The notes below the pieces were generated by a model. The model searched no databases. It was not told where the DNA came from and saw only the letters and a list, made by a program, of their open reading frames with translations. Source: Elusimicrobiota bacterium (GTDB taxonomy: Bacteria; Elusimicrobiota; Elusimicrobia; Elusimicrobiales; UBA9959). Taken from it: a DNA stretch of 51,123 bases. Of this stretch, positions 899 through 14,292 are shown one piece after another (the first letter of the stretch is position 1; each line of letters opens with the position of its first letter). A program made the position numbers and the translations under genes. The stretch is taken from the NCBI GenBank assembly GCA_016234365.1, contig JACRER010000058.1:1-51123 (forward strand). The letters run 5' to 3'.

Positions 899-1348
899 CT
901 ACTCTTCCGCCGGGCCAATATCCCCGGTGGGCGCGCCTTTGGCTTTGCGCGCCTTTTCCTCTTTCTGGCGGTCCTCTTCCTTCATCATCTCTACGATGTC
1001 CTGCACGGTAAGCCCCACCAGCCAGTTGTTCACTTCTTCCCGCAGTTTCTTGTAAAGCCGGCCCGGTATCTCCTCGCGCTCCGGAGCCGGGGCTCCGTTG
1101 AAAGTAAAAGCCTCCATCAAGGCCCAGACGCTGATATTATCCAGGTCCTTGCGCAGGCGGCACCCTTTGCCTTTCTGCGACTCCACAAAACCGGCGTGCA
1201 CCAGCGCCTGCAGCACCTTGTTGCAGTAAGGCGCCGGCAGGCCCTGGAAACGTGCGATGTCCACGACCTGGTTCCAGGCTCCGCCGTTATTCTGCCCCAG
1301 GTATTGCAGGCAGGCCAGGCCGTAAGCTAGAGTGCGGTTCATTCTCAT
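899..1348 (-). CDS. Rrf2-family winged-helix transcriptional regulator
   Basis: A 149-residue protein starting MRMNRTLAYGLACLQYL, the usual Rrf2 opening. It has a winged helix with a recognition region (PAPYCNKVLQALVHAGFVES) and the wing QKGKGCRL. The three Cys residues (about 13, 42 and 63) do not form the tight C-x5-C-x7-C iron-sulfur motif of IscR/NsrR, so a canonical cluster is not evident. The charged C-terminal tail (KEEDRQKEEKARKAK) is an extension. ATG at 1348 or at 1342 could be the start; neither has a clear Shine-Dalgarno sequence. A strong nested palindrome sits just upstream (1380-1437), suggesting autoregulation. Rrf2 proteins usually repress DNA targets in response to redox or metabolic signals; the signal here is unknown. 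Confidence 0.85.
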   Translation of the reverse strand: MRMNRTLAYGLACLQYLGQNNGGAWNQVVDIARFQGLPAPYCNKVLQALVHAGFVESQKGKGCRLRKDLDNISVWALMEAFTFNGAPAPEREEIPGRLYKKLREEVNNWLVGLTVQDIVEMMKEEDRQKEEKARKAKGAPTGDIGPAEE

Positions 1349-1505: not shown

Positions 1506-2552
1506 CTATTTTTGTAACTTGCGATACGCCGCCGCCAGGGCGCAGGCGGGCTTGTTGGGGGCAAAAACATCCCCCTCCTCCACCAGGCTTACCCCGGGGC
1601 AGCGGCTGCAGTAGGCCGCGTCAGGGCAGGCGGCGCAGGCTTTCACATCCTCCTGCCCGGCCTTGCGCCACCGCTTAAGCCAGGGCGCGGAGCGCCAGAT
1701 AGCGCCAAAACCCCGGCGCGACAAATTCCCCAGTTTAACCGGCAATTGCAGGCAAGGGTAAAGCGTTCCGTCAGGGGCTATAGCGCAGATGTTGCGCCCC
1801 GCCCCGCAAAGAAAATCATACCGAGGCGAAGCCTCGACAGGCGCGCTGGAGGCCGTATAAGGGGCCGCTTCGCCGGCGGCCAGCAGTTTTACGGCCCGCG
1901 CCAGTTGCGTGCGGGAAAGGCGCAGGGCGAGCGCCGCTACGCCCCCGTCGTTGGCGGCGGTTATTACCGGGTCGAAAGCTATGCTAAAAACTTCCCGCCG
2001 GGCCATGGCGCGCAGCCTGGCGGCGCTTCTTATGTTCCCCTTCATCAGCGGCACTTTCATCCTCACAGGGATACCGGTTTTTTTAAGCAGCTGCGCGGCG
2101 CTAAGGCTGGCGGCGTACGAGCCGGCTTTACCCGTAACGCCATCGTGGAACCGGGCGCCCCCGTAAAAGCTTATCTCAAAACCCGCCACGCCTGCAGCTT
2201 TCAACTGCCGCGCCAGTTCAGGGGTAAGGCCGTGGCCGGAAGAAAATACTCGCACGCCGAACCGGCGGCGCACGGCATACGCGCAAAGTTCGGCCAGGTC
2301 GGGCCGCAGCAGGGGCTCCCCGCCGGTGAAAACAAGGTAAAGCCCGCCGGCAGCCGCCAGTTGGTCCAGTATCTTTTTCCAGCAGGCGGTATCAAGCTCC
2401 CGGCCAGGGCGGGCCCGCCCGCGGGTTTCCGGCAGGTAGCAATGCCTGCAGGACAGCGGGCAGCGCCGCGTAAGTTCTATGGTAATGGAAACGGGGATAC
2501 TCCGCTCAAGCGTCAGCAGGTTGAGGCGGGCGGAAGGTGCGACGTCAGTCAT
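1506..2552 (-). CDS. Radical SAM/SPASM peptide-modifying enzyme
   Basis: A 348-residue protein. The radical SAM cluster motif is C31-x3-C35-x2-C38 (CPLSCRHC), followed by the GGEPLL SAM-binding motif near residue 77. The C-terminal third has a SPASM-type Cys array: CGAGRNICAIAPDGTLYPC, then CAACPDAAYC and SRCPG, then a last Cys near the end. This could hold auxiliary Fe-S clusters as in PqqE, AlbA and sactisynthases. Such enzymes form carbon-carbon or thioether links in ribosomal peptides. It overlaps the S26-type peptidase gene by 8 bases and is the last gene of a kinase, PqqD, peptide, peptidase, radical SAM set, so its likely substrate is the 45-residue peptide at 2880-3017. The chemistry cannot be read from sequence; heme or quinone maturation-type roles remain possible. 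Confidence 0.88.
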   Translation of the reverse strand: MTDVAPSARLNLLTLERSIPVSITIELTRRCPLSCRHCYLPETRGRARPGRELDTACWKKILDQLAAAGGLYLVFTGGEPLLRPDLAELCAYAVRRRFGVRVFSSGHGLTPELARQLKAAGVAGFEISFYGGARFHDGVTGKAGSYAASLSAAQLLKKTGIPVRMKVPLMKGNIRSAARLRAMARREVFSIAFDPVITAANDGGVAALALRLSRTQLARAVKLLAAGEAAPYTASSAPVEASPRYDFLCGAGRNICAIAPDGTLYPCLQLPVKLGNLSRRGFGAIWRSAPWLKRWRKAGQEDVKACAACPDAAYCSRCPGVSLVEEGDVFAPNKPACALAAAYRKLQK

Positions 2553-2877
2553 TTACAAAAAAACGGAAAACGGCGCGGCGCACGCGGGAATAAACCAGGC
2601 CGGGCAGGCCGGAAGATAGGGGCCCGCCCAACGCCCGGCCGCGCACGTCGTCCCAGGGCACAAAGTGTTCCTCGATGCGCCCGGCGTCGTCCGCCAGCCA
2701 GGCCCCGCCGGAGTCCGTGCGCAGCACGCGGTGCAGCAGCAGCCTTCCTTCATAGGAGTATACGGCGCAGTCGCCGGGGAGCGGCCGCGAGGGGGAGAGC
2801 AAAGTGGTGCCGCCGGCCTTGAAGATCGGCAGCATACTGGTCCCCTCCAGGTGAAAAATCCGCGGCGCCTGCGGCAT
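2545..2877 (-). CDS. S24/S26-type serine peptidase, probable leader peptidase
   Basis: A 110-residue protein. GTSMLP near residue 12 carries the catalytic Ser of the S24/S26 fold. PGDCAVYSYEG is followed by LLLHRVL, where a His takes the place used by the general base in SipW/Sec11-type (S26B) enzymes rather than the Lys of bacterial LepB. No N-terminal membrane segment is visible, unlike secretory signal peptidases, so the enzyme is probably cytosolic. Its ATG is 2 bases after the stop of the small peptide (TGACCATG), giving tight translational coupling, and its end overlaps the radical SAM gene. The context suggests it cleaves the leader from the modified peptide. A role in processing another protein, or as a LexA-like regulator without a DNA-binding domain, cannot be excluded. 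Confidence 0.78.
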   Translation of the reverse strand: MPQAPRIFHLEGTSMLPIFKAGGTTLLSPSRPLPGDCAVYSYEGRLLLHRVLRTDSGGAWLADDAGRIEEHFVPWDDVRGRALGGPLSSGLPGLVYSRVRRAVFRFFVND

Positions 2878-2879
2878 GG

Positions 2880-3017
2880 TCAGGAGGTTTTTTTCAGCGA
2901 TTTGCAGGCCAACTGGCTAATGGGCCCGGTCTGGCATTTGCCGCAGGCCAGCGCCGCCGTCTCAAAGACCTTCTCGGTCTTCATTTGCGGTTTCTCGTAA
3001 ACCTTTTTCTTTTTCAT
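2880..3017 (-). CDS. 45-residue Cys-containing peptide, candidate RiPP precursor
   Basis: This small gene was found by reading between the peptidase and PqqD genes. The ATG at 3017 has a strong ribosome site (GGAGG, then AAAA, then ATG) that lies inside the end of the PqqD-like gene, and the start overlaps that gene's stop (ATGA). It encodes 45 residues: a Lys-rich start (MKKKKVYEKP), a leader-like block KTEKVFETAALA, then a putative core with three Cys (25, 28 and 38) beginning ACGKCQTGP and ending SLKKTS. Charged leader, helix-prone recognition block and Cys/Ser/Thr core match the architecture of precursors handled by PqqD-like domains and radical SAM/SPASM enzymes. Its stop is 2 bases before the peptidase start. 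The precursor role is inferred from position and architecture. An alternative is a small structural or regulatory protein. Confidence 0.75.
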   Translation of the reverse strand: MKKKKVYEKPQMKTEKVFETAALACGKCQTGPISQLACKSLKKTS

Positions 3018-3274
3018 TTTTCCTCCAGGAGTCCGGCGCGGCGCAGGCCGGAAACAAATTCCTTCACATCCGCGCGCGCCTCCGCTTCCCCCACTTCAAA
3101 TTCTCCGGCCAGGCCGGCGGCCAGCTCCGCCTCAGAGAGTCCTTTATCCAGGCCCTCCCAGATAATGGCGGCCGTACCGTTCAGTTCGTGCAGGCGCGCG
3201 CCGGCCGCGTCCACCACGAACAATTCGCCGCCCACCCGCCTGTAAGCCAGGTCTTTTCTTATCTTAAAGGCCAT
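3014..3274 (-). CDS. PqqD-like peptide chaperone (RiPP recognition element)
   Basis: An 86-residue protein with the PqqD signature: an N-terminal beta region (YRRVGGELFVVDAAGARLHEL), NGTAAIIWEGLD, then a helical half ending RRAGLL. PqqD-type domains bind leader peptides and present them to radical SAM enzymes. It starts 2 bases after the kinase stop, and its own stop overlaps the ATG of the 45-residue peptide (ATGA), so its translation is coupled to both. It lacks fused domains. A PqqD protein paired with an HprK-like kinase resembles the two-gene sets called HPr-rel-A in some family collections; this pairing is recalled rather than checked. Confidence 0.87.
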   Translation of the reverse strand: MAFKIRKDLAYRRVGGELFVVDAAGARLHELNGTAAIIWEGLDKGLSEAELAAGLAGEFEVGEAEARADVKEFVSGLRRAGLLEEK

Positions 3275-3276
3275 AG

Positions 3277-4095
3277 TTATCCCACTAGTTCCAAAAATCC
3301 GGCGTCCTTCTTAGAGAATTCCAGCCTGTGCGGCTCGGCCGCCAGCAACCGGGCCGCGGAACTCATAACGGCCGCGGCCTCCCGGTTCTCCCTGGAAAAA
3401 TTCACCGCGCAGCGCAGCAGCACCCTGAAAGCCTCGGCCTTGCCGCATGGCGCTACCCTGTGCCGCGCGGCTTTTTTAGGCAGGAAGACCCCGCCCAGCG
3501 GCCAGGAACCCTGCCGCCCGCCGGAGCGCATTTCCCCCCAGAACGGGGACCCGTAAACCCGCCAGCGGCCCCGCTCGAAACGCAGCATATTTATCTCGTC
3601 GCTTATCACCTCGGCTCCGGCCGCGGCGGCCAGTTTCGAGAGCGTGGACTTGCCAGCCCCGGACTTGCCAGGGAACAGCCAGGCTTTGCCGCTTTTGAGG
3701 ATCCCGGCCGAGTGCAGCATCAGGCCGCCGTCGCGGATCAACAGCGAACTTATTAAAGAACGTAAAAAAGCATCCAGGCACTGTTCGTTAGGGGCCGCCG
3801 TAAGCGTGCCGCGGCCGGAACGCGTATCAAGGGCCGCCCTGAAGTCCCCCCTGGCCAATTCCAGCCTGGAACCGGCCCATTTCACCTCCGGCCTGAAAGG
3901 AGATAGCCTGGCCGGACCCTCTGAGCAGTCAAATTGCAGCCCGCCAAAGCCTGAAACAATAAAAGGCGCGTACCGCCGGCCCAAAACAGAAATGATACCT
4001 TTGAAGTCCGATTTAAAAGACAGCCCCGAACCGGCTATTTTCAATACGGCACGGCTCATGGCCATGAGATGGAGCTCGGAGAGGTCTCCTGCCAC
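3277..4095 (-). CDS. HprK-like P-loop kinase
   Basis: Taken from the GTG at 4095 this is 272 residues. A Walker A motif GKSGAGKST lies near residue 145, preceded by LMLHSAG, and a Walker B-like ISDE lies about 20 residues further on, as in the C-terminal domain of HPr kinase. The N-terminal 100 residues do not resemble HprK. In-frame ATGs at 4065 and 4059 are alternative starts; the 4059 ATG overlaps the stop of the pseudopilin gene (ATGA). The longer start is kept because the block LSELHLMAMSRAVLKIAGSG fits the N-terminus I recall for HprK-related kinases. HprK homologues in some lasso-peptide clusters phosphorylate a C-terminal Ser of the precursor. The adjacent peptide ends in Thr-Ser, so it is a plausible substrate. 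No HPr gene is in the window. Confidence 0.78.
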   Translation of the reverse strand: MAGDLSELHLMAMSRAVLKIAGSGLSFKSDFKGIISVLGRRYAPFIVSGFGGLQFDCSEGPARLSPFRPEVKWAGSRLELARGDFRAALDTRSGRGTLTAAPNEQCLDAFLRSLISSLLIRDGGLMLHSAGILKSGKAWLFPGKSGAGKSTLSKLAAAAGAEVISDEINMLRFERGRWRVYGSPFWGEMRSGGRQGSWPLGGVFLPKKAARHRVAPCGKAEAFRVLLRCAVNFSRENREAAAVMSSAARLLAAEPHRLEFSKKDAGFLELVG

Positions 4096-5351
4096 GACTG
4101 CTTCACCAGCACTACGTTGAGAGTTGGCAATTTAAGGGAGCCATCATAGAAAACCGTGGCGTTGCCGGCGCCGGCCACATTGCCCACCACCCAGAGCGCG
4201 CCGTAAATATCGCTGTCGCCGGCCCTGTCAAAATCCCCGCCCACATACAGGAACCCGTAAACCCCCAGGTCCGAGCCGGTGGCGCCGCCCTCGCAGGAAC
4301 TGCCGCAGGAGCCCAGCGTATAAGTTGCAGCGTTGGATTTAAGCCCGGTGTCCCCTGGGTACTGGTTGCTGGCGGAGGTGTCTATTTTCTGATATTCCTG
4401 CCAGGCCGTAGAGGGCACTGCCATCACGCAGTTGGGGCAGTACTGGTCGCTGCCGGTTATCCCCAGGTTGCCGCGCACTATAATGGTTCCGCGCAGGCCG
4501 TTCTGTCCGCTCCAGCTGGTATTGTTATCCCAGTACCAGGTGTAGTTCTTGTTAATGCGCGAATCGTTGTTCAAATTCTGCACGCCGCAATTTGTGCAGG
4601 CCGCACCGGAGTACGTGCAGGAGCTGGCGAAACAACACTTCACGCTGCCGCCGCTGGTCTGGCAGTTGAGCGTGCCCGTGGCCGCGGCGGAGGAGCGCAT
4701 AGTGGTAAAATCGAACTGCGGCAGCTCCGGCACGTCATAATTCGACCACCACTCGAGATTGTCGGTATTGGGCGGGTTCAGGTCGTTGGTGGTGTCCAAC
4801 GGACGCACCACGTTCTTGGAAAGTTTTCGCGGAAAATGGGTGGATAGCGCCGCGCCGGACACCGTTATATCGTTCATGGCCATGATGGGGCCCCAATGCA
4901 CCACGCTGTTGCCGGTGGCCGAAAGCATGCCGCCGGAAATGATGGCCCCGGGGATGCTGGTATTGGCGTAGACCACCTTTACGGACCGAGTTTCCGTCTT
5001 ATTGCTGTCGCGCCCTTCGCCAACTACAGTGATCATATCTGCGCTTGGGCCGGAAGAGATGGAGATCCGGTAGCTGCCGCCCGGCACGTCGTAATAGGTG
5101 GTATCGAAACGGTACCCAGCCAGGGTGGTGCCGGCGCGTATGGATTCGAAGGTGGTGGTGGAACTCTTCACCTTCCAGTAAGCCCGGTCGACCGCGGCCT
5201 CGGCCAGGTTAAAAGCGGAGCTGGACTTCTGGTCCTTGGTGGAGATCTTTGTATCGTCCTGTACCCACCTGACCATGGCGGGGACTATAAGCAACAGCAG
5301 CACAAAGGCCATAATTACGGCCGGCAGGATGAAACCTTTTTTGTTCTTCAT
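4056..5351 (-). CDS. GspK/PilX-like minor pseudopilin
   Basis: A 431-residue protein with a short class III prepilin leader: MKNKKG, cleavage before Phe7, then a hydrophobic segment FILPAVIMAFVLLLLIVPAM. The +5 Glu found in most pilins is absent, as in GspK of type II secretion, which caps the pseudopilus tip. The soluble part has about 14 Cys in clusters (CCFASSC, ACTNCG, YCPNC, SCGSSCEGG), suggesting disulfides or metal binding outside the cell. It follows the GspJ/PilW-like gene by 16 bases, and its last codons overlap the HprK-like gene. Together with the two upstream genes it makes a GspI-J-K-like tip set. Confidence 0.8.
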   Translation of the reverse strand: MKNKKGFILPAVIMAFVLLLLIVPAMVRWVQDDTKISTKDQKSSSAFNLAEAAVDRAYWKVKSSTTTFESIRAGTTLAGYRFDTTYYDVPGGSYRISISSGPSADMITVVGEGRDSNKTETRSVKVVYANTSIPGAIISGGMLSATGNSVVHWGPIMAMNDITVSGAALSTHFPRKLSKNVVRPLDTTNDLNPPNTDNLEWWSNYDVPELPQFDFTTMRSSAAATGTLNCQTSGGSVKCCFASSCTYSGAACTNCGVQNLNNDSRINKNYTWYWDNNTSWSGQNGLRGTIIVRGNLGITGSDQYCPNCVMAVPSTAWQEYQKIDTSASNQYPGDTGLKSNAATYTLGSCGSSCEGGATGSDLGVYGFLYVGGDFDRAGDSDIYGALWVVGNVAGAGNATVFYDGSLKLPTLNVVLVKQSWQETSPSSISWP

Positions 5352-5367
5352 AATCGCGCCTCGCCGC

Positions 5368-5862
5368 CTAATTCATCACGCGCACCTTTTCCGAAGCCAT
5401 ATGCAGCGCTTTTTTCCGCCCTTCGAAGATCTGCTTCTCCAGCGTAAGGGAGACCGAGATTATCCCCATATCGTCGGAGCGCGGGAAGGTGAACGCAAGA
5501 TATTTAAGGTTCTTGCTGAGCGGGCGCCGGACGCCGTTTATGACCTGGTAAAGGTATTGCCCTTCCTGTTGAAAAACCAGAATGCTCCCCTGCTGCTTGG
5601 TGAACGAGATCTTGGAATAGAACGGCTGGCTGGTACTGGCCCGGTTGATGGTTATGGAGGCGGCCTGCGCCTGCCGCAGGTTACGCGTAACCACGTACAT
5701 CACGGCGCGCGCCTCCTGCTGCAGCTCCACGCGGCTGCGGTTCATGATGAATTGCCGGTTGGCCTGCATCAGGATAGGAGCGGAGATGGCGAAAACGGCG
5801 CTGACGATACTGATGGTGATCATCAGTTCCATCAAGGTCACGCCGGAGCGGCGGTTCACCAT
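5368..5862 (-). CDS. GspJ/PilW-like minor pseudopilin
   Basis: A 164-residue protein with a prepilin N-terminus: MVNRRSG, cleavage before Val8, then VTLMELMITISIVSAVFAIS with Glu at +5 (residue 12). A long amphipathic helix with QEARAVMYVVTRNLRQAQ follows, typical of PilW/GspJ. The globular domain is short, and there is no Cys. It overlaps the preceding large pseudopilin gene by 7 bases, so translation is coupled. It is probably processed by a PilD-type peptidase encoded elsewhere; no assembly ATPase, PilC or secretin gene is in the window. Confidence 0.85.
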   Translation of the reverse strand: MVNRRSGVTLMELMITISIVSAVFAISAPILMQANRQFIMNRSRVELQQEARAVMYVVTRNLRQAQAASITINRASTSQPFYSKISFTKQQGSILVFQQEGQYLYQVINGVRRPLSKNLKYLAFTFPRSDDMGIISVSLTLEKQIFEGRKKALHMASEKVRVMN

Positions 5863-8426
5863 GAGAAATTCACCCCCGTGGTGGTCTGCCCCGCGGTGAC
5901 CGGGATGTTGGCGGTAGAGGAGGAGATAAGCGTGACGGCGGCCCCGTAAGGCGAGGGATAATAAGCGTAGACGTTATACTTGGGATTGGTGCTGTTGCGC
6001 ACCTCCGCCAGGTAAGTGCCGTCCTCCATGCTGGAAACTATATAAAAGGGAGTGCCGCTAAGCGTGGCCGTACTGAGCGAGGGCGGCGCGGGAGGACTGC
6101 CGGCCAGCGTGGAAGTGGTGACCACTATCAGCACCCCGGTCTTTATGGGTTCTCCGCCCGACTTCACAGTGCCGGAGATATAGCCCATGGCGCCGCTCAC
6201 GGTGAAGGTGGTGGAAAAAACGGTAAGCCCCTGCGTAACCAGCGAAACGGCGTGCGTGCTGGGGGTCACCAGCTCATGCGAACCTACCGCTGGAGTTATG
6301 GTATAGGAGCCGGTACTGATGTTCATGCTGGTAAATCTGCCGTCCAGCCCGGAAACCTGCTGGTCGCGGGCCGAACCGTTAGCGTCTATAATGGCCACCG
6401 CAACTCCCGGCAGGGGATTGGTGCCGTCCCTGGTCACGTAACCCGAAACGCGCCCGCCCTGATACAGAATAAAGTCCACCCCGGAATGCACCTCCCCGGC
6501 CGCCACGGAAATGCTGTTGGAAGACATGGAAACGTAGGAAGCTGTACCTCCCACCGTCGGATTTGCCGTCACGTCCAGCGTCCCGGGGCTGACGCGCAGC
6601 GTGTAGCGGCCGTTGGAGGTATTGCTGGTCTGTGGCGTGCCGGCCGCGCCGGGGCTCACCACTATGCCGGGGCTTATAACCGCGCCCAAGGCGCTAATGA
6701 TGCGGCCGGTAACGATACCGGTGGTGGCGGCGGAGGAAAGTACCGTGGTGCTGCTGACAAAGGTGTAGATGGAACCGGCCGAGGCTATTGTGATGGTATC
6801 GTTCTGCAGGCTGTAAGTGCTGCTGGTTATCATTACGGTCCAGGTGCCGGTGGCTACGTCCACCAGCGTAAAAGAGGACACGCCGTTTATCATCCATGCC
6901 GTTGTGGAATTGGAAACTCCGTCGGAAGCCGTCACCACGGCGCCCACGGCCGGCGTGCCGGTAACCACGGGGAAGTAGCCGGAAAGCGTGTAGAGCGGGG
7001 CTACCGACGCCGGGTTAAGGAGGTTGAAGTCCACATCGTTGTTGTTGGAATCGTAAGCGCGGCCGTAAGCGAGGGTGGTGTGGAGGTACTCGCTGTTGCG
7101 CTGCAGTTGCGCGCCTATGGGGAACCCGCCCCACATGGAGATCGGCGTGCCTTCCCAGGCGGGCGCCTGCTTGCCGGCCGAACCGTGCGTCCAGCCGACC
7201 GTGTCCAGCACCCTATCGTCCTGATCCAACAGTTGCAGGGCGCCGGCCTTTTCGGCCACTATACAGCTCAGGATCATGCCGAACAGGTCGCAGGGCGGAC
7301 TGTTGGAAGCCGCAAATTGAGCGTCGGTTATAGGGGAACCGCCGGCCACGGTAAGCGGGAAAGTGTTGGCTATAAGGTAGTACCGGCCGGGGCCTACCGA
7401 CTGGTTGATATAGGAGAGGTCGAACTCGTCTATATCCTTGCCGGTGCCGGATTCGCCCAGGTAGCGCAGTTTTATCAAATTCCCGCCCGCGCCGTCGCCG
7501 ATGTTTATGGTGCTGGTGGTGGGATTGAAGAGTTCCACGTATTCGACGTTAGTGCCGCTGACCATGAACGTGGATGCCACCACCTGGCTTATCACCAGGT
7601 GGTCGCGCAGCCAGACGCTGCCGGTGATAGTGCCGGTGGCGATCTTTACAAGGTCGAAACCCTGCGTCTGCTGCGTATTGGCCGAAATAGAAACGTTGCG
7701 CACCTGCGTGTAATAACCGTCCGCGGAAGCTACCAGCGTGTAATTGCCGGGGGAAACGTTTATGTTGTACTGCCCGGTAACGTCCGAAGTGTCCCGCCAG
7801 CCCATGTTCTCCGCGACGTTGACCAGCGCGCCGCTTATGCCGGCCAGAGAAACGGAGTTACGGATCTGCCCCTTAAAAATGGCGTTCGCCATAACAGTAT
7901 CGGGGTTCGCCATCAGGCTGCGAAGGGCGAACTTGCGCTTGGTGCCGCCCTGCGACCAGACTATGGTCACACTGATAAGCCGCATGCCCGTATCCGGAAT
8001 ACTGGGAGCAAGCGTCACTATCTCTCCGGAATCTTCACGGGCCACCTGCACGTACGTATAGCGGGTATAGGTGACCCCGGCCTCGGTAATGTACTCGGGA
8101 GGGAAATAGCCGGTATCGTAGGCGATATCCACCGGGGCAAAATCCGTGGTGTTGTGAGCCGGGTCCGTGGTGACCAGCACCTGGTAGTAGGACTTCTGCT
8201 TGAGGATCTGCATTTTCTCCTGGGCCAAATTGGACGCCAGGGTGCGGTTCTTGGAGGCTTGTATGCCCTTCTGGATGAACCCGAACGACTGTACCATGGC
8301 CAGGATGCCGATGCTGACCAGCGCCAGCGCTATCATCAGCTCCACCAGCGTCAGGCCGGGGCGCGGCCCGGCGGCCGCGGCGCAACGGCGCGTAAAATAT
8401 GTTCTGAATGACTTGTAAATCGGCAT
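5856..8426 (-). CDS. Giant GspI/PilV-like pseudopilin with carboxypeptidase-regulatory-like and LTD-like domains
   Basis: An 856-residue protein. The prepilin motif is late: a 24-residue leader ends PRPG, then LTLVELMIALALVSIGILAM with Glu at +5. A normal GspI/PilV-like domain runs to about residue 180. It is followed by a carboxypeptidase-regulatory-like domain (ISGALVNVAENMGWRDTSDV, then GNYTLVASADGYYTQ). Next is a region resembling a lamin-tail domain (VEYVELFNPTTSTINIGD, later LLDQDDRVLDTVGW). At least three more regulatory-like beta domains follow (GIVTGRIISALGAV, GRVSGYVTRDG, GYISGTVKSGG). Pseudopilins are normally 120-250 residues, so this is a fusion of a pilus subunit with an adhesin-like ectodomain. 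A GGGGGAGG ribosome site lies about 9 bases before the ATG. First gene of the run that ends at 1506. Confidence 0.83.
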   Translation of the reverse strand: MPIYKSFRTYFTRRCAAAAGPRPGLTLVELMIALALVSIGILAMVQSFGFIQKGIQASKNRTLASNLAQEKMQILKQKSYYQVLVTTDPAHNTTDFAPVDIAYDTGYFPPEYITEAGVTYTRYTYVQVAREDSGEIVTLAPSIPDTGMRLISVTIVWSQGGTKRKFALRSLMANPDTVMANAIFKGQIRNSVSLAGISGALVNVAENMGWRDTSDVTGQYNINVSPGNYTLVASADGYYTQVRNVSISANTQQTQGFDLVKIATGTITGSVWLRDHLVISQVVASTFMVSGTNVEYVELFNPTTSTINIGDGAGGNLIKLRYLGESGTGKDIDEFDLSYINQSVGPGRYYLIANTFPLTVAGGSPITDAQFAASNSPPCDLFGMILSCIVAEKAGALQLLDQDDRVLDTVGWTHGSAGKQAPAWEGTPISMWGGFPIGAQLQRNSEYLHTTLAYGRAYDSNNNDVDFNLLNPASVAPLYTLSGYFPVVTGTPAVGAVVTASDGVSNSTTAWMINGVSSFTLVDVATGTWTVMITSSTYSLQNDTITIASAGSIYTFVSSTTVLSSAATTGIVTGRIISALGAVISPGIVVSPGAAGTPQTSNTSNGRYTLRVSPGTLDVTANPTVGGTASYVSMSSNSISVAAGEVHSGVDFILYQGGRVSGYVTRDGTNPLPGVAVAIIDANGSARDQQVSGLDGRFTSMNISTGSYTITPAVGSHELVTPSTHAVSLVTQGLTVFSTTFTVSGAMGYISGTVKSGGEPIKTGVLIVVTTSTLAGSPPAPPSLSTATLSGTPFYIVSSMEDGTYLAEVRNSTNPKYNVYAYYPSPYGAAVTLISSSTANIPVTAGQTTTGVNFSW

Positions 8427-11712: not shown

Positions 11713-11761
11713 CCCCTTAGGTCCAAAGGCCTACCCTTTGGAAAAGCCATACGGAGGTTCC

Positions 11762-12958
11762 ATGAAGAAATTATTCGGCTTGACGGCCGCGCTGTTGTTC
11801 ACCGCAGGCGCCGCAAGCGCTTCACAGAAGATCGTCAGCTTTGAGCACGCCTACAAGGGCGGCTCCATAGACCGCAGCATCGAAAGCGTGGGCGGCAAGG
11901 TCACCAAGAAATTCGAACTTATTGACGCGCTCGTTGCAGTCTTCCCCGACAACCTCAAGGACGCGGCCATTTACTCGCTGAAAGGCGTTACCGCCGTGGA
12001 CGAGGACCGCTATATAAGGTGGATAGAGGAAGCCGCGGCCCCGCAGCTGCCCTCCATGGAAAGCGCGCTTAATATGGTGCGCACCGGGGAAGGCTGGGAC
12101 GCCCCCGTTTTCGCCGAGGTCCGCCCCGCGGCCGACCCCGCCGAGCAGGAGATACCCTGGGGCGTAAAGCGCGTCAACGCAGCCTCCGCGTGGGACTACA
12201 CCGCCGGCAAGGGCGTGAAAGTGGCCGTAGTGGACACCGGCGTGGATTTTAAGCACGCCGACCTCGCCGCCAACTACAAGGGCGGTTATAACGCCATCGT
12301 TTCCACCGCCTCCCCCATGGACGACCACGGCCATGGCACGCACGTTTCCGGCACCATCGCCGGCGTGAAGGACCTTAAGGGCGTGGTGGGCGTAGCCCCC
12401 CAGGCCGACCTCTACGGCGTGAAGGTGCTCGACAAGAACGGTTCCGGCCAGTATTCCTGGATAGTGGACGGCATAGAGTGGGCCATCAAGAACCACATGG
12501 ACGTGATCAATATGAGCCTCGGCGGGCGCTCCGGCACGGACGCGCTGGCCCAGGTAATGAAGAAGGCCAAGGAAGCCGGCGTTACGGTGGTCTGCGCCGC
12601 CGGTAACGACTCCGGCCCGGTCAACTACCCGGCCAAGTACCCCGAAGCCATCGCCGTCTCCGCCTCGGATTCCGCCGACAAGCTGGCGTCTTTCTCCTCC
12701 AAGGGCGCCGAGATAGCCGTCATAGCCCCCGGCGTCAACATCACTTCCTGCAAGAAAGGCGGCGGCCTCACCACCATGTCCGGCACCTCCATGGCCTCCC
12801 CGCACGTGGCGGGCCTGGCGGTACTGGCCGTAGGCGCCGGCGCCAAGAACCCCGACGAAGTGCGCGCGATGCTGCAAAAAGCCGCCTCGCCGCTGCCCGG
12901 CCTCAAGCCCACCGACCAGGGCGCCGGCCTGGTGGACGCCTTCAAGCTGGTCCGCTGA
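11762..12958 (+). CDS. Secreted S8 family subtilisin-like serine protease
   Basis: 398 residues from the ATG at 11762, chosen over an upstream in-frame ATG because of its GGAGG ribosome site and signal peptide (MKKLFGLTAALLFTAGAASA). An I9-type inhibitor propeptide covers about 22-90. The catalytic domain has Asp158 (VVDTGVD), His191 (HGHGTHVSGTIAG), oxyanion Asn282 (AAGNDSG) and Ser343 (SGTSMASPHVAG), so the triad is complete. No C-terminal sorting domain is seen. It has its own strong promoter and terminator. The next gene is a paralogue in the same direction. It is probably an exported, self-maturing endopeptidase. Confidence 0.95.
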   Translation: MKKLFGLTAALLFTAGAASASQKIVSFEHAYKGGSIDRSIESVGGKVTKKFELIDALVAVFPDNLKDAAIYSLKGVTAVDEDRYIRWIEEAAAPQLPSMESALNMVRTGEGWDAPVFAEVRPAADPAEQEIPWGVKRVNAASAWDYTAGKGVKVAVVDTGVDFKHADLAANYKGGYNAIVSTASPMDDHGHGTHVSGTIAGVKDLKGVVGVAPQADLYGVKVLDKNGSGQYSWIVDGIEWAIKNHMDVINMSLGGRSGTDALAQVMKKAKEAGVTVVCAAGNDSGPVNYPAKYPEAIAVSASDSADKLASFSSKGAEIAVIAPGVNITSCKKGGGLTTMSGTSMASPHVAGLAVLAVGAGAKNPDEVRAMLQKAASPLPGLKPTDQGAGLVDAFKLVR

Positions 12959-12976
12959 AGAACGTCGGCTCCATAA

Positions 12977-13008
12977 AAGACCCCGCGGAGAACTCCGCGG
13001 GGTTTTTT
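12977..13008 (+). terminator. Intrinsic terminator after first subtilase
   Basis: A perfect 10-bp stem (CCCCGCGGAG at 12981-12990, CTCCGCGGGG at 12993-13002) with a 2-base loop is followed by TTTTTT, 22 bases past the stop. Confidence 0.9.
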
Positions 13009-13032
13009 ATTTTGTAAAATATAACCTTCAAG

Positions 13033-14292
13033 ATGAAAAAATTAATCCTTTTAATTTCAGTCCTGGCCTGCGCTCCGGCTTTCGCCGCCCAGCAGCTTAT
13101 AACCTTCGACGCCTCCCTGGATACGGCGGCCCGCAAGCGCCTGGTGGAAAGCCGCGGCGGCATGGTGGTAAAAGATTTCAACTTCATAGGCGCCGCCCTG
13201 GCCCAGTTCCCGGACAGCCGCCGAGCCGAGGACCTGGCCCGCCTGCCCGGAGTGGCCACGGTGGAGGACGACGAGGAAATTTACTGGCTGGGCAGCGAAG
13301 ACGCCCCGCTTACGCCCGAAGCTGCGGCCGCGCAGTTTTCCGCCCTGCTGGCGGACACGCCCGCCCCCGCGGTCCCGCCCGCCGCTTCCACGCAGGCGCC
13401 AGTAGCCCCCATTTACGTCACCACCGCGAGCGTAGAAGGCAAGGCCGACCACATGTCCTGGGGCACCGCCAAAATGCGGGCCTTCGACGTGTGGCCGGTA
13501 ACCAAAGGTGCGGGCGCGCGCGTGGCCGTGCTGGACACCGGCGTGGACTGCGCCCACCCGGACCTGGCCCCCAATTGCGTAGCCGGCTACAACGTCCTCA
13601 ACCCGCGCCTCCCCCCGGACGACGACACGGGCCACGGCTCGCATGTTTCCGGCATCATAGCCGGCGCCCTGAACTGGAAAGGCGTGGTGGGCTTTGCCCC
13701 CGAAGCCTCCATTATCCCGGTAAAAGTGCTCAACAGCAGCGGCACCGGGAAAGTTTCCGAGATCATAGCCGGCATTGAGTGGGCCATGGGCCAGCGCCCC
13801 GACATCATCAATATGAGCCTGGGCTCGTCCAAGTATTCCGAAGCGCAGGCCAAAGCGGTAAAGGCCGCCCGCAACGCCGGCATCCTGGTGGTCTGCGCGG
13901 CCGGCAACGACGGCGGCACCGTTAACTTCCCCGCGGCTTTCGACGGCGCCACGGCGGTGACGGCGCTGGCTTTCGACAACACGCTGGCCCCGTTCTCCTG
14001 CAAGGGCCCCGAAACCGACTTCATCGCCCCCGGAGTAAAGATATTCTCCGCCGCGCCCGGCGGCGGTTTCATCGCGGCTTCGGGCACGTCCCAGGCAGCG
14101 CCGCACGTTTCCGGCCTGGCCGCGCTGGCCGTGGGCCTGGGCGTAAAAGGCGCCGACGCGCTGGAAAAAGCGCTGGCCCGGGCCTCGGTAAGCCTTGGCC
14201 TGCCGGCCTATTACGAGGGGTACGGCGTGCCGGTAGCCTCGCGGCTGCTCAAGAACGTCCTGACCCCGCCGCAGCCCAAACAGCTCCCATAA
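13033..14292 (+). CDS. Second secreted S8 family subtilisin-like protease
   Basis: A 419-residue protein with a signal peptide (MKKLILLISVLACAPAFA), an I9-like propeptide (about 20-88), and an Ala/Pro-rich linker (about 91-130) not present in its neighbour. The catalytic residues are Asp168 (VLDTGVD), His201 (GHGSHVSG), Asn292 (AAGNDGG) and Ser353 (SGTSQAAPHVSG). Four extra Cys (Cys173, 182, 288, 323) may form disulfides. It starts 25 bases after the previous gene's terminator and has no obvious Shine-Dalgarno sequence. It is a diverged tandem duplicate of the preceding protease, implying separate substrates or timing. Confidence 0.94.
   Translation: MKKLILLISVLACAPAFAAQQLITFDASLDTAARKRLVESRGGMVVKDFNFIGAALAQFPDSRRAEDLARLPGVATVEDDEEIYWLGSEDAPLTPEAAAAQFSALLADTPAPAVPPAASTQAPVAPIYVTTASVEGKADHMSWGTAKMRAFDVWPVTKGAGARVAVLDTGVDCAHPDLAPNCVAGYNVLNPRLPPDDDTGHGSHVSGIIAGALNWKGVVGFAPEASIIPVKVLNSSGTGKVSEIIAGIEWAMGQRPDIINMSLGSSKYSEAQAKAVKAARNAGILVVCAAGNDGGTVNFPAAFDGATAVTALAFDNTLAPFSCKGPETDFIAPGVKIFSAAPGGGFIAASGTSQAAPHVSGLAALAVGLGVKGADALEKALARASVSLGLPAYYEGYGVPVASRLLKNVLTPPQPKQLP

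Follow-up and report, generated by a model that had tools for sequence, protein, structure and literature searches.

A five-gene Elusimicrobiota cassette that probably encodes a radical SAM branch of kinase-tailored phosphopeptides

Contig JACRER010000058.1 of the Elusimicrobiota bacterium assembly GCA_016234365.1, analysed over positions 1 to 51,123 (the window), carries between positions 4095 and 1506 a compact cassette of five open reading frames (ORFs), all on the minus strand, for an HprK-like kinase, a PqqD-type protein, a 45-residue Cys-containing peptide, an S26-type peptidase and a radical S-adenosylmethionine (SAM)/SPASM enzyme, which together probably make a ribosomally synthesized and post-translationally modified peptide (RiPP). 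An initial annotation, made from the sequence alone, had proposed these identities and had described the genes as separated or overlapped by a few bases. The coordinates are confirmed, with spacings of 2, -4, 2 and -8 bases from the kinase to the radical SAM gene, and from this spacing the five genes look translationally coupled. The identities are also borne out, as Pfam, fold and relatives agree. Pfam recognizes PqqD (6e-16), Radical_SAM (2e-22) and SPASM (2e-10); its matches to the kinase and the peptidase are sub-threshold only, and the identity of both was settled by fold and relatives. The features of the cassette are as follows.

3277..4095, minus strand: HprK-like peptide kinase, likely start ATG 4059 (alignment of 36 homologues, AlphaFold, Foldseek, weak NCBIfam HprK_rel_A/ScmC matches)
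3014..3274, minus strand: PqqD/RiPP recognition element (RRE) leader-binding protein, lasso B1-like (PF05402, 6e-16; best solved relative TfuB1)
2880..3017, minus strand: 45-residue precursor peptide MKKKKVYEKPQMKTEKVFET|AALACGKCQTGPISQLACKSLKKTS (conservation, purifying selection)
2958..3017, minus strand: predicted leader, residues 1-20, ending in F-E-T, with Y-x-x-P at 2988-2999 (conservation matched to the leader and cleavage site of linear polyphosphorylated peptides, LPPs)
2883..2957, minus strand: predicted core of 25 residues with three Cys and the invariant Ser codon (2883-2885) at its end (conservation)
2545..2877, minus strand: small S26/SipW-like putative leader peptidase, S14/H49/D64 (alignment of 27, PDB matches, model, S24/S26 fold)
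1506..2552, minus strand: radical SAM/SPASM putative peptide maturase (Pfam, conservation over 38 homologues, PDB relatives PqqE and SkfB)

In a survey of 295 Elusimicrobiota genomes, the kinase query matched 60 and the peptide query 47. A peptide that was not conserved beside PqqD/radical SAM pairs had been named beforehand as what would speak against a biosynthetic unit. We examined 37 Elusimicrobiota loci with the peptide, and every one has PqqD, radical SAM and S26 genes, which in one genome are divided between two loci. HprK lies in the same locus in 32 of these and elsewhere in the genome in three, and in the remaining two the contig starts too late to tell. In G041, the peptide and S26 genes stand together, separate from the kinase, PqqD and radical SAM genes, an arrangement that ties S26 to the peptide. 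Co-occurrence of the five families in the same order, named initially as a check, holds for the window's family (order A, HprK-PqqD-peptide-S26-radical SAM) but not elsewhere: other Elusimicrobiota families have HprK-PqqD-radical SAM-peptide-S26 (order B), five Acidobacteriota loci (L217, L218, L219, L220 and L229) have peptide-S26-HprK-PqqD-radical SAM and two Planctomycetota loci (L221 and L222) have peptide-HprK-S26-PqqD-radical SAM. A collection scan with a DNA pattern built from the leader and the first core residues returned 47 loci, two of them from Acidobacteriota and one from Planctomycetota. Altogether, a conserved precursor is found beside leader-binding and modifying enzymes at 37 Elusimicrobiota and about ten Acidobacteriota/Planctomycetota loci, as the biosynthetic unit proposed initially would have it. 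Given this recurrence in dozens of genomes and three phyla and the purifying selection on the peptide, the five-gene set is far beyond chance.

In each of the 45 Elusimicrobiota peptides compared, Y-x-x-P is present, [FIL]E[TQKS] precedes xxL(A/G/S)C, the core holds precisely three Cys and the last residue is Ser. The eight peptides of L147, L150 and L155, from Acidobacteriota and Planctomycetota, share the motifs and the C-terminal Ser with two core Cys, and further intact peptides of these two phyla also terminate in Ser. The core encoded in the window starts with A-A-L-A-C, so that its position 3 is not Ser, and includes a CGKC motif. Within the window's family, the pooled ratio of nonsynonymous to synonymous polymorphism (pN/pS) is 0.21 for the peptide (core 0.24, leader 0.17), compared with 0.43 for the radical SAM enzyme, 0.46 for PqqD, 0.51 for HprK and 0.46 for S26, and over the same ten genomes mean amino-acid identity is 0.86 for the peptide vs 0.62 for the radical SAM enzyme. 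The peptide ORF is thus under strong purifying selection, its constraint being roughly double that on the enzymes. The precursor is single-copy in nearly all Elusimicrobiota genomes, and the cores vary outside this phylum. In a Planctomycetota metagenome-assembled genome (MAG), L155:5738-7163 holds six precursor genes with different cores, followed by one radical SAM and one PqqD gene; a kinase and an S26 gene are elsewhere in the genome, adjacent to each other (L190). A related precursor group with KPAVVYREKIEA-type leaders, two-Cys cores and a C-terminal Ser is found at L199, L202, L203, L204, L224 and L225, and at the last two it adjoins HprK, PqqD and radical SAM genes. An orphan precursor copy at L228:8211-8693 has an apparent frameshift in the second half of its core, and no complete cassette is present in the 17 kb around it.

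The nearest solved structure of the PqqD protein is the lasso RRE TfuB1. The radical SAM enzyme, with PqqE and SkfB as nearest solved relatives in the PDB, carries the CxxxCxxC motif at C31, C35 and C38 and six SPASM Cys (C249, C267, C306, C309, C315 and C318), all of which 95% or more of the 38 homologues retain. The AlphaFold model of the kinase (mean predicted local distance difference test, pLDDT, 93.8) matches PEPCK and HprK/P in Foldseek and hence the HprK/PEPCK P-loop superfamily; its profile matches among solved structures are mostly ABC-protein P-loops and uninformative. R112, H128, G148, K149, D166, E167 and F185 are invariant across 36 homologues, with K149 as the Walker-A Lys, and the conserved H128-K149-D166-E167 set (H-K-D-E) differs from the His-Lys-Asp-Asp set required by lasso-tailoring kinases (PMC9266682). 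Assignment as a classical HPr kinase was rejected, as there is no Pfam HPr kinase match and the similarity is one of HprK/PEPCK fold only.

The first description of SpI-type leader peptidases in RiPPs dates from 2026 and concerns linear phosphopeptides made without a radical SAM enzyme (PMC13381572). In that system YxxP is the motif bound by the RRE, core Ser3 is polyphosphorylated by LppK, and LppS, which needs the RRE, cuts after F-3 E-2 T-1 with A1 next, a site that was tested experimentally (PMC13381572). The S26-type protein of the window, for which no transmembrane anchor is evident, has PDB profile matches to SEC11A/C and signal peptidase I, and its model (pLDDT 91) has the S24/S26 fold; a further Foldseek match is SipA, a homologue of signal peptidases that belongs to pilus assembly. 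S14, H49 and D64, identified from the alignment of 27 sequences, match the S29/H68/D93 triad of LppS in order.

A further gene of probable relevance encodes NTP_transf_5 (PF14907), which we take to be a PsmN/LppN-like family. It adjoins HprK in L104, L147 and L150, and in the window's genome it lies on another contig (C98). Of the 47 genomes with the peptide, 42 have a strong match (at least 50 bits), compared with 26 of the 248 without it (Fisher p 2e-27, not corrected for phylogeny). The initial view that five genes cover every step is probably one gene short: NTP_transf_5 is probably a sixth pathway gene, usually encoded elsewhere in the genome. An HD_5 gene, whose product carries the motif H-E-x-x-D-G-x-G-Y-P suggestive of an HD-GYP domain, lies directly upstream of HprK at 15 order-B loci, and of the 12 genomes checked in the window's family, 11 have an HD_5 homologue next to NTP_transf_5. 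In the window's own genome the two genes are convergent (L157:6955-9398), and their linkage is kept across the family, including three genomes with no cassette detected. Order-B loci continue with genes for giant exported Ig-like-domain proteins, a propeller protein with Por_Secre_tail, a PorV/UPF0164 protein and NTP_transf_5, and some also carry ABC-2 transporter or Poly_export/Wzz genes. The flanks of the cassette in the window, which we treat as context, include the following.

4056..8426, minus strand: pilin-like exported genes 4056-5351, 5368-5862 and 5856-8426, upstream (N_methyl motifs, homologues elsewhere)
899..1348, minus strand: Rrf2 regulator, downstream (PF02082; neighbour counts)

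The likely kinase start, ATG at 4059, overlaps the TGA of the pilin-like ORF 4056-5351 as ATGA, and because of this overlap the operon may begin further upstream than the kinase. N_methyl pilin motifs are present in 5368-5862 and 5856-8426, and homologues of the upstream genes occur at about ten other order-A loci. Rrf2 homologues are found at 14 related loci, and the Rrf2 protein is a possible regulator of the cassette. Positions 1-858 of the window encode a repeat-rich exported protein cut by the contig end; at several further order-A loci a giant exported protein occupies the matching place. Two adjoining subtilase (S8) genes are on the plus strand at 11738-14292.

To the observed anatomy, conserved motifs, recurrence of the gene set and selection on the peptide we add a chemistry whose steps and order we infer. 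The PqqD/RRE protein would bind the leader via Y-x-x-P, and the radical SAM/SPASM enzyme would modify the Cys core, presumably prior to leader removal, with a Cys-based thioether as the likeliest product. The HprK-like kinase may then phosphorylate the invariant C-terminal Ser, as a core without Ser3 that ends in the kind of Ser modified by PadeK, ThcoK, SyanK and PsmK suggests, and NTP_transf_5 may elaborate the phosphate. The S26/SipW-like peptidase would cut after F-E-(T/Q), freeing a core of about 25 residues. We propose, with a probability of roughly three in four, that the cassette is a RiPP pathway and forms the radical SAM branch of the HprK-kinase phosphopeptide RiPPs, related to the LPPs and paeninodin. 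The probable product is a single conserved molecule, housekeeping or linked to the surface, and not a variable toxin. The pilin-like genes, giant exported proteins, HD_5, polysaccharide-export genes of some genomes and S26 fusions suggest, but do not prove, a surface role. A bolder version of this proposal, which we hold only tentatively, is that the cassette represents a separate RiPP class, present in three or more phyla, whose peptide is the shared substrate of a radical SAM enzyme and a kinase for the C-terminal Ser. The Elusimicrobiota product would be a fixed, nearly invariant phosphopeptide with a cell-surface role, as a surface-protein or polysaccharide partner or as a signal and not as a toxin, and the leader peptidase would have become fused to a neighbouring exported protein in some lineages and changed its nucleophile from Ser to Cys in others.

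Several observations weigh against a phosphopeptide pathway of this form. The S26 nucleophile is Cys (GGCMRP) in 9 of 36 homologues (L069, L073, L075, L077, L079, L081, L082, L083 and L085), apparently a naturally occurring Cys variant of a Ser enzyme resembling signal peptidases, and at four order-B loci (L070, L071, L072 and L078) very large exported proteins carry an S26 domain at their N-terminus, so that S26 may do more than leader removal. The kinase target is taken by analogy with paeninodin, as Ser3, the residue phosphorylated by LppK, is missing from the core. No exporter is encoded within the window cassette. L155 has six Ser-ending precursors but no kinase or S26 gene in its 12 kb; G119, G153 and G208 keep the HD-NTP pair with no cassette detected; and the p-value for NTP_transf_5 ignores phylogeny. 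In a maximum-likelihood tree of radical SAM enzymes with long outgroup branches, deep nodes and a single cassette clade are not resolved.

A peptide far more conserved than its enzymes, single-copy in nearly all Elusimicrobiota, with CGKC in its core and PqqE as the nearest solved relative of its maturase, might instead be the source of a redox cofactor or metal ligand, in the manner of PqqA or mycofactocin, with a fixed intracellular product and the kinase as minor tailoring. We regard this as improbable, since the cores vary outside Elusimicrobiota, L155 has six different precursors, the neighbour counts showed no recurrent dedicated oxidoreductase, and the kinase, SipW-like peptidase and NTP_transf_5 fit phosphopeptide pathways. 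It is similarly doubtful that S26 belongs to the pilin-like and giant exported neighbours, as their signal peptidase or assembly factor, and that the pathway consists only of PqqD, radical SAM enzyme, peptide and kinase: pilin-like genes do overlap the operon in order A, and the fusions and the SipA match point the same way, but the window protein has no evident anchor, S26 lies beside the peptide or inside the set in the Elusimicrobiota orders, in the Acidobacteriota/Planctomycetota sets and in the split G041, and the precursor carries the LppS cleavage motif.

The Cys-rich core and the kinship of the SPASM enzyme to SkfB and PqqE would also suit a secreted antimicrobial, a bacteriocin of the sactipeptide or ranthipeptide type. 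Conservation and context led us to reject this as the leading explanation, and we consider it quite unlikely, as the core is strictly conserved in single copy across the phylum and the cassette has no recognised immunity gene or bacteriocin-type exporter. Chance neighbours or a spurious peptide ORF, conceivable for a short ORF in MAG data, are hardly credible given the recurrence in three phyla with shuffled gene order and the pN/pS of the peptide.

The radical SAM branch of phosphopeptide RiPPs is accordingly compared below with the known systems, of which the LPP pathway (lppA/K/B/S/D/N; Popov et al., 2026; PMC13381572) is the closest. Like it, the cassette combines a discrete RRE, an HprK-like kinase and a SipW-like Ser/His/Asp peptidase with a YxxP leader, an F-E-T|A cleavage motif and an association with polysaccharide loci, and NTP_transf_5 is a putative counterpart of the NTP transferase LppN. 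The spacing in the leader falls short of the LPP consensus, YxxPxVLxHQxIxFETxxS, by two residues. LPPs, reported from Bacillota, have no radical SAM enzyme in the core set, variable cores and a phosphorylated Ser3, whereas the cassette has a radical SAM/SPASM enzyme and a conserved Cys core with an invariant C-terminal Ser; the LPP core cluster also has an MsbA-like transporter, and none was found among the cassette or scanned flanking genes. Paeninodin-type lasso peptides (PadeK, ThcoK, PsmK/PsmN) share the HprK-like kinase, B1-type RRE, presumably the nucleotidyltransferase (PsmN) and the C-terminal Ser, which is present in 45 of 45, 8 of 8 and the later intact precursors that occur with an HprK-like kinase, but the cassette has a radical SAM enzyme and S26 in place of the macrolactam cyclase and B2 cysteine peptidase. 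SynChlorMet (TIGR04248-TIGR04251) resembles it in the HprK-like ScmC, PqqD-like ScmD and radical SAM/SPASM ScmE and ScmF; the cassette has one radical SAM gene, and membership was rejected on bit scores of 35, 14.5, 96 and 55 against cut-offs of 125, 100, 400 and 400. HPr-rel-A (TIGR04352, TIGR04353) likewise pairs an HprK-related kinase with a PqqD chaperone, and was rejected at 37.5 of 200 and 25.2 of 35 bits. Mycofactocin and PQQ share a PqqD-type chaperone, a SPASM enzyme and a short conserved precursor, although to our knowledge these pathways have neither an HprK-like kinase nor an S26 peptidase and their precursors are unrelated; both (TIGR03962, TIGR02109) and GeoRSP were rejected as under the NCBIfam cut-offs. 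Sactipeptides and ranthipeptides share the radical SAM/SPASM enzyme and Cys-containing core. The nickel superoxide dismutase maturation protease (TIGR02754) is also a small S26-type enzyme, weakly similar to a planctomycete S26, but differs in substrate and gene context.

The initial annotation knew of no named class for this combination. That holds for the five-part set in the open-access literature, but part of it was already catalogued: HprK, PqqD and radical SAM as SynChlorMet, whose cut-offs the cassette fails, and kinase, RRE and S26 as LPP (PMC13381572). Searches of the open-access literature, which leaves most subscription journals and bioRxiv uncovered, found no match for HprK with PqqD and radical SAM, SipW with RiPP and radical SAM, SynChlorMet, or C-terminal serine with SPASM, precursor peptide and radical SAM. 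With LPP- and paeninodin-like workings, yet without Ser3, transporter or lasso enzymes and under the SynChlorMet cut-offs, the cassette is placed as a phosphopeptide-RiPP variant with a radical SAM step. This proposed branch is what is new; LPP, paeninodin tailoring and SynChlorMet were already known. As a compact system of five genes and one 45-residue substrate, it makes radical chemistry, phosphorylation and leader removal separately testable, and the conservation of the precursor, which exceeds that of its enzymes, suggests a specific function in the cell that uncultured bacteria have retained across the phylum. The cassette extends the front end of LPP to Elusimicrobiota, Acidobacteriota and Planctomycetota and couples it there to a SPASM enzyme and a terminal Ser like that of paeninodin, so that a few adjacent genes unite three RiPP logics.

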